The translations under genes and the position numbers were made by a program. From Opitutia bacterium (GTDB taxonomy: Bacteria; Verrucomicrobiota; Verrucomicrobiia; Opitutales; Opitutaceae), in NCBI GenBank assembly GCA_016190985.1, contig JACPPI010000006.1, positions 176,526-219,603 on the forward strand: 43,078 bases of DNA. The letters are read 5' to 3'. Below are positions 15,475 to 29,202 of this stretch, in pieces. Each line of letters begins with the position of its first letter. Position 1 is the first letter of the stretch. The notes below the pieces were generated by a model. It had not been told where the DNA came from and made no database searches. It was given only the letters and a program-made list of their open reading frames with translations.

Positions 15475-16542
15475 CTACTTGTAGCCGAGGGCGCTACAGA
15501 GCCGCACCGTCAGGTAGCCCAACAGGCCGCAGACGGGCAGGGTGAAGGCCCAGGCCCAGAGGATGCGCTCGACGACAGTCCACTTGAGGGCGCCGATGCG
15601 CTTGGCGGTGCCCACCCCCATGATCGAAGTGGTGATGGCATGAGTCGTCGACAGCGGGATGCCGGCCACCGAGGCGGTGTGCAGAATCAGGGCAGCGGTG
15701 GTCTCGGCCGCGAAGCCGTGCACCGGCTGCAACTTGACCATCTTGTGGCCCAGGGTGCGGATGATGCGCCAGCCGCCGGCGGCGGTGCCGGCGGCCATGA
15801 CTAGCGCACAGGTAACCACGACCCATTGGTTCACGACGAATTCCGGGGTGCGGAGGAAGGAGGCCCAGGCGGGCAGGGTGTCGAAGGCCCCGCTCTTGGT
15901 GCCGGTGAAGAGGGCCAGCGCGATGATGCCCATCGTCTTCTGGGCGTCGTTGGAGCCGTGGCTGTGCGCCATGAACCCCGCGCTGACCAGCTGGAGCTTG
16001 CCGAAGACGTTGTTCACGATGCGCGGGGTGAACCGGTGGATGCAGATCGTCAGGACAAACATCAGGAAGGCGCCGCCAAAGAAACCGATGAGCGGCGAGG
16101 TGATCATCGGCAGCACGACCTTGGGCCAGAGGCCCACCGCCGCGCCCTTGGCGTCGGTCGAGGCCCAGTGCAGCACGTTCCAGTTGTCGCCGGAGGAGGC
16201 CAGCGCGGCGCCGCAGAGGCCGCCGATGAGCGCGTGGCTGGAGCTGGACGGCAGGCCGAACCACCAGGTTACCAGGTTCCAGATGATGGCGCCCATCAGG
16301 CCGGCGAAGATCGTGACCATGGTGACGACGTTGGTGTCGACCAGGCCCTTGCCGATGGTGCTGGCGACGGCGGTGCCCATCAGCGCGCCGATGAGGTTGA
16401 AGACGGCGGCGAGGAAGATCGCCTGGCGCGGCGTCAGCACCTTGGTCGAGACGACCGTGGCGATGGCGTTGGCGGCGTCGTGAAAGCCGTTGATATACTC
16501 GAAGACCAGCGCCGTCAGGAGGACGATCAGGAAAATGGTCAT
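15475..16542 (-). CDS. pit: PiT-family inorganic phosphate transporter
   Basis: This polytopic inner-membrane protein of 355 residues symports phosphate with a cation. The duplicated PiT signature is present as GFHDAANAIATVVSTKVL (near the N-terminus) and MAHSHGSNDAQKTMGIIAL (near the middle). WWFGLPSSSSHALIGG and GIPLSTTHAITTSIMGVG are the matching re-entrant motifs. I set the start at the ATG giving MTIFLIVLL, because the upstream 25 residues are Pro/Gly/Gln-rich and lie within a repeat. It follows the DUF47 gene on the same strand after 79 bases, the usual DUF47-pit pairing. It is convergent with the ROK kinase gene, six bases apart. Confidence 0.93.
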   Translation of the reverse strand: MTIFLIVLLTALVFEYINGFHDAANAIATVVSTKVLTPRQAIFLAAVFNLIGALMGTAVASTIGKGLVDTNVVTMVTIFAGLMGAIIWNLVTWWFGLPSSSSHALIGGLCGAALASSGDNWNVLHWASTDAKGAAVGLWPKVVLPMITSPLIGFFGGAFLMFVLTICIHRFTPRIVNNVFGKLQLVSAGFMAHSHGSNDAQKTMGIIALALFTGTKSGAFDTLPAWASFLRTPEFVVNQWVVVTCALVMAAGTAAGGWRIIRTLGHKMVKLQPVHGFAAETTAALILHTASVAGIPLSTTHAITTSIMGVGTAKRIGALKWTVVERILWAWAFTLPVCGLLGYLTVRLCSALGYK

Positions 16543-16584
16543 GTTGGGGTCAGGAGCTGCTTGCACCGTTCCGGCCTGCTGGCC

Positions 16585-16620
16585 GGCCGGTGTTTGTCCG
16601 GGCCAGTCGCCCGGCAAAGG
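16585..16620. repeat. TTTGTCCGGG hairpin repeat between DUF47 and pit
   Basis: TTTGTCCGGGC (16593-16603) pairs with GCCCGGCAAA (16609-16618) with a single bulged T. The same arrangement, TTTG + bulged T + CCCGGG... with ...CCCGGGCAAA, recurs at 28796-28837 inside another gene, with shared flanking bases CCGGTG before the left arm. It is a second-copy repeat family within this window. Confidence 0.5.
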
Positions 16621-16621
16621 C

Positions 16622-17257
16622 TCAGGAGTATTTCAGCATGATCATGAAGACCACCTGGCCGGCGTCGCGCGCGCGGTCGACAGCGGTTTCCACCAGGTCG
16701 TAGAGTTCCATCAGGATGAAGACTTCCTTGGCCTCGATCGGGCCGTTGTAGAGCTCCTTGACCAGCGCGAGCATGACCTTGTCGGCCTCGCCCTCGGCGA
16801 ACTGGAGCTTGGCGTGGTGGTCGGCGATGCGCTCGACCTTGGCGCCGTTGCGGAGCTCCTTCACCATCGCGACGACCGACCCCACGGCCTGCTCGAGCAG
16901 CACGACCTGCTTTTGCAGGCTCTCGCGCGGCACGCGGGCCGGGCAGATGGTGAGGCGCTCGACGATCTTCTCGACGGTCTTGGGGATGCGGTAAAGGGCG
17001 AGCGAGAGGGCCTCGATGTCCTCGCGCTCGAGCGGGGTGACGAAGGTCTTGCAGAGTTCCTCCGTGATTTCCTGCGTGATGCGCTTGTCCTTCCGGCGCG
17101 TCTGGATGATGTCGTGGATGTTGGTCGTCCCCAGGGTGCCGTCGTTGCCCAGGATCTTCACGAGCAAGGCGGTGCTGACGCGGGCCTCCTCGGCGCTGGC
17201 CTCAAGCAGGTCATAGAACTTCTCTTCCCGGCCCATAAGCTTCTTGAAGGAAATCAT
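16622..17257 (-). CDS. DUF47 PhoU-like phosphate transport regulator
   Basis: This 211-residue, largely alpha-helical cytoplasmic protein has the DUF47 pattern: FYDLLEASAEEAR, KRITQEITEELCKTFVTPLEREDIEALSLALYRIPKTVEKI and VFILMELYDLVETAVDRARDAGQ. Proteins of this family are distant PhoU relatives that accompany PiT transporters and are thought to gate them. It is the first gene of the DUF47-pit unit. A Pho-box-like element with a -10-like hexamer lies 27-60 bases upstream. Confidence 0.88.
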   Translation of the reverse strand: MISFKKLMGREEKFYDLLEASAEEARVSTALLVKILGNDGTLGTTNIHDIIQTRRKDKRITQEITEELCKTFVTPLEREDIEALSLALYRIPKTVEKIVERLTICPARVPRESLQKQVVLLEQAVGSVVAMVKELRNGAKVERIADHHAKLQFAEGEADKVMLALVKELYNGPIEAKEVFILMELYDLVETAVDRARDAGQVVFMIMLKYS

Positions 17258-27605: not shown

Positions 27606-27625
27606 GCGGCCGATAAAGCGGCCGC
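27606..27625 (-). terminator. Hairpin at the end of the YihY-like gene
   Basis: GCGGCCG (27606-27612) and CGGCCGC (27619-27625) form a 7-bp GC stem with loop ATAAAG. It overlaps the last base of the YihY-like stop codon. No T-tract follows on the minus strand, so termination would be weak. Confidence 0.35.
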
Positions 27626-29202
27626 TAACTCTGCCCCTTCGCGGGGAAGGGCGCGAAGGTCGAGCTGGGCTCCATCCGGCCGATGAGGGTGTCGAGCGAC
27701 TCGGCGCCGAGGGCGGCGGGCAGGGCTTGCGCCAGCCGCTGATGGTAGTGCGCCAGCACGGGGTCGACATTGTCGAGCAGGGCGCCGGCGGGGGCCTCGC
27801 CGTAGTGCTCGAATTTATGGCGGAAATCCTCGAGGGTGATCTGGTCGAGCGGCCGCGCGGGCTGGTAGCGGAAATCGTTGGGGTCGGCGCCTTCGGCGGG
27901 AGGCAGTTCCGCGATGAGCTTGAGGTCGCAGAGGCGGTTGAGGCTCTCGTTGAGAATCTGCGAGGGCACGCGGATGAGCCCGGCCAGCTCGCTGACCGCG
28001 TAGGCGGGGGCGACGACCTTGAAGCGGCGGGCGATGAGCAGCAGCACGACCAGCGACATGCTTTCGCGGGTGACGTGGTTGAGGCTGTGCCAGGCGGTCT
28101 GGCTGCTGCGGTAGCGGACGTTTTGCACCGCGTAGGTGATCTGCCCGCCGACCAGCACGAAAAACCAGAAGATGTAGAGGCCGATCATCAGGATCGGGAT
28201 GATGCTGACGGAGCCGTAGAGGCTCTTGGACAGGACGACGCGCTTGAAATAAAGGAAGGCGAGGTAGTTGTTGAGGAAGAGCAGGGCGGTGACGATGACG
28301 GCGCCGAGCAGCGCGGCCGGCCAGCGCACGCGGGTGTGCGGCACGAGCCGGTAGAAGAGCGTGAGGATGAACACCAGCAGCAGGACGGAGCCCGACGGCA
28401 GCATCCAGACGAACAGGCTCTTGAGCTGGGCGCCGAGCGGGATTCTCTCGAAAAAGACGTTCAGGAACGCGCCGGCCGAGAGCAGCGTGAGCGAGGTGAA
28501 GAAGAGCAGCGCGCCGAGCGTGATGACGCTCCAGTAATAGACGATGCGGGCCATCCAGCTGCGGCCGCGGCGCACGCCCCAGATGTCGTTGAAGGTGTTC
28601 TCGATCGTCGTGAAGAGGCCGATGACGATGACGAAGAGGGTGAGGATGCCGATCAGGCCGGCGGTGCCGGAGCGGGAGCTGGCGATGAAGTTGTTGATGA
28701 GCTGGACCATCTCGGGTGTGGCGGCAGCACCGTTGCCCGCTGCCGTTTCGACAGGCTCAAGGCCCCGAGCTTGTCGAAGGGCTGCGGGCCCGGTGTTTGT
28801 CCCGGGAACTGCGCGCTCCGCCGCATTCCCGGGCAAAGCCGCCGGGTCGGTCTTGCGCTCCTCACGGTCAGCCTGATCGTATTGCGCGACCTGCGGGGCG
28901 ATGAAGCTAATGACGCGGTTCACCGCCTGCGCCGCGAAGGCGGGGTCCTGGTTGCCGAGCGCGAAACCCGAGATGAGGACCGCGATGGCCACGAGCGGGC
29001 CCAGGGCCAGCAGCGAGCTGTAGCTGAGGGCGGCGGCGCGGATGGCCACATGCATCTCGTGCAGGCCCGACAACGTGATGGAGACGATGCGCAACAGCGC
29101 GAAGCAGCGGCTTTTCGCGGTATGCTCGCGGGTCAGCCCCGCCGCCCAGATGTCGTGCGTCCAGATTTGCCTGAGCCGGACCGGAAGCGTGGGCAGCGGC
29201 AT
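27625..29202 (-). CDS. YihY/RNase-BN-like membrane protein
   Basis: This 525-residue protein has the YihY/UPF0761 family's six-helix membrane core: AAALSYSSLLALGPLVAIAVLISGF (about 57-81), GTAGLIGILTLFVIVIGLFTTIENTFNDIWGV, and SIIPILMIGLYIFWFFVLVGGQITYAVQN. A C-terminal extension of about 120 residues contains a winged-helix-like region (AYAVSELAGLIRVPSQILNESLNRLCDL). The first periplasmic loop (about 100-165) is enlarged by a repeat insertion at about residues 120-158. The old name ribonuclease BN is not supported for this family; its function is unknown. The start is 28 bases after the upstream gene on the same strand. Confidence 0.8.
   Translation of the reverse strand: MPLPTLPVRLRQIWTHDIWAAGLTREHTAKSRCFALLRIVSITLSGLHEMHVAIRAAALSYSSLLALGPLVAIAVLISGFALGNQDPAFAAQAVNRVISFIAPQVAQYDQADREERKTDPAALPGNAAERAVPGTNTGPAALRQARGLEPVETAAGNGAAATPEMVQLINNFIASSRSGTAGLIGILTLFVIVIGLFTTIENTFNDIWGVRRGRSWMARIVYYWSVITLGALLFFTSLTLLSAGAFLNVFFERIPLGAQLKSLFVWMLPSGSVLLLVFILTLFYRLVPHTRVRWPAALLGAVIVTALLFLNNYLAFLYFKRVVLSKSLYGSVSIIPILMIGLYIFWFFVLVGGQITYAVQNVRYRSSQTAWHSLNHVTRESMSLVVLLLIARRFKVVAPAYAVSELAGLIRVPSQILNESLNRLCDLKLIAELPPAEGADPNDFRYQPARPLDQITLEDFRHKFEHYGEAPAGALLDNVDPVLAHYHQRLAQALPAALGAESLDTLIGRMEPSSTFAPFPAKGQS
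28747..28837. repeat. Two palindromic repeats inserted in frame in the YihY-like gene
   Basis: The first unit is TTCGACAGGCTC (28747-28758) with GAGCTTGTCGAA (28767-28778), pairing at 11 of 12 positions plus one wobble, of the widely dispersed TTCGACAAGCTC type. The second is TTTGTCCCGGGAA (28796-28808) with TTCCCGGGCAAA (28826-28837), with a bulged T, related to the unit at 16593-16618. Together they add about 38 residues to a loop without breaking the reading frame. Confidence 0.65.

Follow-up and report, generated by a model that had tools for sequence, protein, structure and literature searches.

A short palindromic repeat, here called R1, lies in frame within the gene of a BrkB/YihY-like membrane protein in an Opitutia bacterium and encodes a segment of the protein between two helices. 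Taken as a whole, the best explanation, which is very probably correct, is that R1 belongs to the short, non-autonomous palindromic elements of the REP/MITE kind and has spread within one Opitutaceae-like genus. The analysis covers a window of 43,078 nucleotides, the whole stretch of DNA under study, taken from a genome (G000) of 2.95 Mb on 34 contigs. Its relevant features are collected in Table 1. The product of the gene matches the Pfam family Virul_fac_BrkB with an E-value of 4.4e-39, and protein matches to it occur in 40 of the 57 genomes searched. The closest named homologues come from Opitutaceae-like MAGs, part of which are labelled Lacunisphaera or Opitutus, the latter genus belonging to the same family as the source genome.

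Table 1. Features of the window discussed in the text, with coordinates counted from its first nucleotide.
Feature	Position	Strand	Evidence and remarks
BrkB/YihY-like membrane protein gene	27625..29202	(-)	open frame, 525 aa; Pfam PF03631
R1 element, composite form, 111 nt	28727..28837	(+), antisense to gene	R1 model 86.1 bits, E 2.9e-15; codes residues 122-159
Hairpin P1 of R1 (CACCGTT...CCGGTG), tip opened by 39-nt palindrome	28728..28795	(+)	fold; covariation of helix 1
Nested 39-nt palindrome (repeat 1), tip of P1	28743..28781	(+)	absent from G018 72-nt element; placement ambiguous by 1 nt either way
Hairpin P2 of R1 (TTTGTCCCGGGAA...TTCCCGGGCAAA)	28796..28837	(+)	fold; covariation of helices 2, 3
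Second R1 copy in window, 56-nt form	16563..16618	(+)	64.1 bits; between minus-strand genes 15475-16542 and 16622-17257

Folded as single-stranded DNA, the composite element forms three hairpins: the outer hairpin P1, the 39-nt palindrome seated in its tip, and P2. The fold energy of the 111 nt is -45 kcal/mol, compared with -23.7 (sd 2.9) for shuffled sequences (z -7.4), and none of 200 shuffles folds as low. The signal of the 39-nt palindrome folded alone with its flanks (51 nt) is weaker, with a z of -1.8 and 9 of 200 shuffles as low. The original prediction described two different palindromes of dispersed type over about 114 bases (28729-28842, residues 120-158) that add a protein segment without disrupting the frame. 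The repeats, the undisturbed open frame and, in essence, the span hold, but the palindromes are nested rather than adjacent. Dispersal applies to R1, with at least 51 copies in the genome, whereas the exact pattern of the 39-nt palindrome is rare here, being found at two places including that of the window.

The general plan of R1 can be read from its copies, whose simple forms are mostly 55-72 nt long. P1 bears CCGTT on its 5' side, then a variable inner stem and a TGCT-like tip, and CCGG on its 3' side. P2 follows directly, beginning with T-NN-GTCC and finishing with GGC-NN-A. Conserved bulges belong to the structure of the pair. All seven simple copies that were folded consist of two unlike hairpins, each of which folds separately. 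A covariance model was built from seven copies, and pairing was assessed on 73 distinct copies from the genome itself and its relatives. Standard pairs make up 96.8% of the pair cells, compared with 72.5% after shuffling, and cells in which both sides have changed number 383 against 93 in the shuffles. The covariation measure is 0.495, compared with 0.128 for the shuffles and 0.03-0.08 once the pairing partners are slid. Because the alignment was fitted to the model, the structure is favoured in these comparisons, yet so large a double-change count would be difficult to account for without it.

The ends of the element were tabulated for 78 copies, those of the source genome being taken at 44 bits or more and away from locus ends. 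They carry neither a GTAG nor a CGTC motif and no conserved flank; the 5' end is mostly GCAC and the 3' end mostly CAAA. Terminal inverted repeats are absent, each end pairing within its own hairpin, and no target-site duplication of fixed length was found at the flanks. The two flanks of a copy share longer words than shuffled flanks do (0 of 300 shuffles), partly at copies set between 7-bp tandem units. Such tandem-like units, of the types GTTGAGA, GAGGACA, GCTGAAA and GGTTAGA, stand on both sides of several copies, among them those at G000:C12:52815, C21:37292, C21:37606, L188 and L273.

Searching the source genome with the repeat as plain DNA gives 12 places, the query among them, and the covariance model raises the number to at least 51, a lower bound for which 150 of 2194 first-look candidates were scored. 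According to a gene caller that places 37 genes over 90% of the window, 22 of the 51 copies lie within predicted genes, 25 between genes, many of them near gene ends, and 4 at gene edges. Relative to their share of the DNA, genes are avoided (p about 1e-16), though many copies lie in them. Two of the 22 in-gene copies are at most 4 bases from a gene end and one more is at 49 bases, while two neighbouring copies share one weakly scored frame. An earlier classifier, which used 240-nt flanks and placed 12 of the 51 copies in frame, was dropped, as it recognised only 979 of 2000 random window positions; after the change the copy C32:108353 passed from in frame to intergenic, and eleven other in-gene copies were added. 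The second copy in the window takes up most of a 79-nt intergenic gap. Among relatives, searched with stricter filters, R1 is found in 19 of 21 genomes of the genus. Outside the genus, the search covered 16 further genomes of the family and 20 of the order, and of these 36 one has R1, as a single copy in the family member G029. In a phylum sample of 288 genomes, with about 17 candidates scored per genome at E 1e-5, it occurs in four, all within the genus.

The age of the insertion can be approached through the homologues of the gene. The 87 loci collected reduce to 71 distinct proteins, query included, once identical rows, the window's own copy (L009) and three loci below 300 aa without R1 (L022, L066, L102) are set aside; L073 does not reach the loop, and 69 other homologues cover it. 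The linker between the helices is hypervariable in length and sequence across them. In line with the original prediction of an extra segment, 67 of the 69 lack it, and R1-derived segments are present in the homologues from G018 (L010/L068) and G011 (L012/L048). When the R1 model is run over all 87 loci, the element turns up in the gene of the window, G018 and G011 only, with one further copy outside the gene in G012 (L021/L050). At the same site, the G018 homologue L010 carries a simple 72-nt R1 that lacks the 39 nt and otherwise differs by one mismatch, so that the two form an empty/filled pair. The G011 copy is rearranged, with another R1 between P1 and P2.

The segments in G018 and G011 mean that the insertion is older than the genome of the window or has moved between lineages. 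The segment may have been ancestral in the clade and then lost, or passed between lineages, instead of being gained on the window's own branch, a reading to which somewhat less than an even chance is given. The three carriers have in common an inner P2 stem (AACTGC...GCATT) that is rare in the other copies read, which speaks for a single origin or for exchange. In alignment A2, the 25 rows of 72 nt read CCG at this position in 17 cases and GCG in two, the G018 copy itself and L273, the latter within a different surrounding stem. However, in a gene tree calculated without the loop the window pairs with G010, which has no insert, and G018 pairs with G011, both groupings being starred. Holding the three carriers as one clade is rejected (p-AU 8e-5), the group having been named after the tree was seen. 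A single gain would then need several losses, and the loop-covering homologues beyond the clade are without R1. One gain followed by several losses, or an exchange of alleles, would fit the stem and the tree alike, and independent gains would fit the shared stem badly.

The nesting of the palindromes recurs elsewhere. The same arrangement of the 39-nt palindrome is found in R1 copies of G010 and G018, and its exact pattern occurs in 12 of the 57 genomes, the source genome included, three of them from other genera. In the eight composites read, which comprise that of the window and a single one from every locus of L255-L261, a palindrome of the 39-nt class always occupies the same spot in the P1 tip, bounded by CTG and CTG (CGG in L259). 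The P1 stems of several composites are unlike, as are their P2 forms. Either the palindrome has a habit of entering the P1 tip, or composites first spread and their stems were altered in step afterwards. In L255 the palindrome seems to be reversed, as judged by eye from its unequal arms, which favours repeated entry. As the composites were chosen through model or peptide hits, they give no rate. Copies of this palindrome also seem to occur outside R1 (L004, L261:1370). R1 nests in R1 as well, either within the tip of P2, as in L260 and L261, or where P1 meets P2. A copy lies between P1 and P2 of another at G000:C2:53449, C5:311901, C33:89868 and C26:40247 and at L012:2649-2743, and this four-hairpin unit recurs with much the same junction. 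Insertion seems to favour hairpin tips. A wider proposal is that R1 and the 39-nt palindrome belong to a set of mobile palindromes that prefer existing hairpin tips, do without a Y1 transposase and repeatedly build linker segments in proteins of the genus. Such a preference would lead palindromes to nest in one another at the same spot repeatedly and in either orientation. This proposal is offered tentatively and is, on balance, doubtful.

In a rival reading, R1 would belong to the REP/REPIN systems and be mobilised by a Y1 (HUH) transposase present in the same genome, of RAYT or IS200/IS605 type, that would read its bulged hairpins. The two adjacent hairpins of R1, with their conserved bulged bases, resemble the structures that such enzymes read. 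PF01797 matches are present in 16 of the 21 genus genomes; one G013 locus has R1 copies less than 1.5 kb from a Y1 gene, and the best Y1 gene of the source genome has two R1 copies at a distance of about 4 kb. However, R1 occurs without a PF01797 match in five of the 21 (G002, G006, G008, G014 and G019, of which G008 and G014 are at most 80% complete), and PF01797 occurs without R1 in G001 and G016. R1 is absent from 34 of the 35 loci examined around PF01797 hits, and in the remaining one it is not directly beside the gene. The absence of GTAG and CGTC motifs from the 78 ends points the same way. Neither co-occurrence over the 21 genomes nor the 35 loci tied a transposase to R1, and mobilisation by a Y1 enzyme is regarded as possible but rather unlikely.

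The orientation of the copies bears both on the function of the element and on selection. Inside genes, 20 of 22 copies run against the direction of the gene (p 1e-4), or 19 of 21 with neighbours merged (p 2e-4), and the bias is clear. Between genes of the same strand, 15 of 19 copies are antisense to both (p 0.019), or 11 of 15 with neighbouring pairs merged (p 0.12). The intergenic copies, several of which are neighbours, lean the same way, which makes it less likely that selection on the encoded peptide is the only cause of the bias. Among 32 high-scoring copies sampled from relatives, 7 lie in genes, 4 antisense and 3 sense, and the three sense copies represent one gene in three species. 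R1 could instead be a functional structured RNA or regulatory element, duplicated and kept for a role of its own, with the in-gene copies incidental. Strong covariation, conserved unpaired bases and the 25 intergenic copies, many near gene ends, are consistent with such a role. However, 22 copies lie within predicted genes, copies nest in one another and carry another repeat, and an Rfam scan of 28600-29000 at loose thresholds lists three matches (two miRNA families and one snoRNA), all far under the gathering score. The antisense position of 20 of 22 in-gene copies also means that transcripts would in most cases not contain the modelled strand, although the reverse strand can fold too. A structured RNA or regulatory element is consequently improbable as an account of R1. 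That the loop is an ordinary fast-drifting linker of low complexity with palindromes by chance, as its hypervariability among homologues might suggest, is refuted by the 51 genomic copies; the failure of any shuffle of the 111 nt to fold as well and the near-identical 72-nt element in G018 also speak against it, and its probability is close to nil.

Under the preferred explanation, that of a spreading palindromic element, R1 copies probably arise by transposition. One copy would have entered the part of the gene that encodes a variable linker joining two helices. A net change divisible by three, in a linker that tolerates changes of length, would have left the frame and presumably the protein intact. 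Later, the different 39-nt palindrome would have entered the P1 tip, again as a multiple of three; the 39 nt thus probably came second and were not lost in G018. A structure predicted by AlphaFold from 35 sequences, with L076, L088, L095 and L098 left out of the alignment, is consistent with a tolerant linker. Its mean pLDDT of 69.9 is middling, and internally values below 50 occur at residues 119-161 only, the stretch between the two helices, which is predicted to be an unstructured, floppy loop. Given the usual topology of the BrkB/YihY family, the loop would lie on the periplasmic side.

A simple scheme in which the element enters and the frame is kept meets with difficulty when all copies are considered. 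Of the 19 in-gene copies at least 60 nt from gene ends, 5 have a length divisible by three, about the chance value, and the remainder need extra flanking bases or small indels. All three frames are encoded, frame 2 most commonly. The notion of an element built for keeping the frame was dropped on these lengths, which suggest that the frame is kept through selection and not by the design of the element. The in-frame copies would then be those that passed selection, with bases from the flanks or small indels completing a multiple of three.

Other genes contain R1 in a similar way, which supports the original prediction that such repeats can enter coding DNA and create new protein segments. Pfam supports seven kinds of in-gene host, DUF4340, Asp_protease_2, DEAD_2, YfbK/vWA, RsmB, UvrA and DsbD; in the scan of ten in-gene frames, two have no match and one has a marginal match only. 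In alignments without identical rows and frames below 200 aa, the segment is found in none of the 20 other genus sequences of the aspartyl-protease-like gene, and the R1 peptide of RsmB in none of 14 others. The R1 site in RsmB is a hypervariable linker. Where the source genome has R1, the linkers of L219, L221, L213 and L211 contain other, unlike repeat-like peptides, so that repeats of more than one family may insert at this linker. Two R1 copies lie in a UvrA gene of 2003 aa (G000:C3:20100-26111; L314:1101-7112). Some insertions look old and kept in the reading frame, as judged from sequence comparison. The sense copies of the relatives' sample stand at the same place of the same gene, presumably metallopeptidase-like from its HELMH motif, in G019 (L180), G013 (L268) and G015 (L199), and have diverged in L199. 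By eye, the insert of the gene at C8:158359 in the source genome also recurs in G015. The copies at G000:C2:1294 and C2:2268, separated by about 900 bases, occupy neighbouring frames close to a DUF4340 gene, which a frameshift has perhaps split.

Several known systems resemble R1 in part. The available text of a survey of GTAG/CGTC REPs (PMC3733652, BMC Genomics 2013) reports intragenic copies in many species, some coding for about 20-30 residues, as well as REPs set within palindromes. It names Opitutus terrae as the species richest in intragenic GTAG repeats, which have entered both of its uvrA genes. The phenomenon itself is therefore not new. These REPs are likewise short palindromic repeats found partly inside genes, though mostly intergenic according to that text, and uvrA seems to be a kind of gene that repeats of different families enter. 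In contrast to them, R1 consists of two unlike adjacent hairpins and lacks a GTAG or CGTC end in the 78 copies, a comparison that does not include the O. terrae consensus. Set against the intragenic REPs of O. terrae, R1 was found in one of the 16 family genomes outside the genus. For the palindromic elements of Rickettsia (RPEs), the available part of a review (PMC10969869) states that nearly half of those first reported lie in ORFs, and that they are about 150 bp long with a conserved encoded peptide. R1 is likewise palindromic and in frame in unrelated genes, with 22 of 51 copies in genes. However, it is mostly 55-72 nt long and is read in more than one frame. The likeness to in-frame Rickettsia elements, also part of the original prediction, thus holds as an analogy of behaviour. 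REPINs, described in the accessible text of PMC3116915 (PLoS Genetics 2011) as inverted pairs of REPs that form a hairpin and are linked to RAYTs, share with R1 the short palindromic form, the compensatory changes and the two-part structure. R1 differs from them in having two unlike hairpins side by side and in that no link to a RAYT was found. Among the matches listed in the open-licence PubMed Central literature, no paper describes the R1 family. The family appears to be new, as do its structure, its antisense bias inside genes and the seating of a second, different palindrome within one of its hairpin tips.

With R1, a further lineage joins Rickettsia and Opitutus as one whose small palindromic repeats have put new segments into genes of conserved proteins. 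The empty/filled pair, together with the shared and diverged insertions, provides a means for dating and testing such gains. With the 39-nt palindrome in the hairpin tip, the target preference of a mobile palindrome becomes readable from the sequence.
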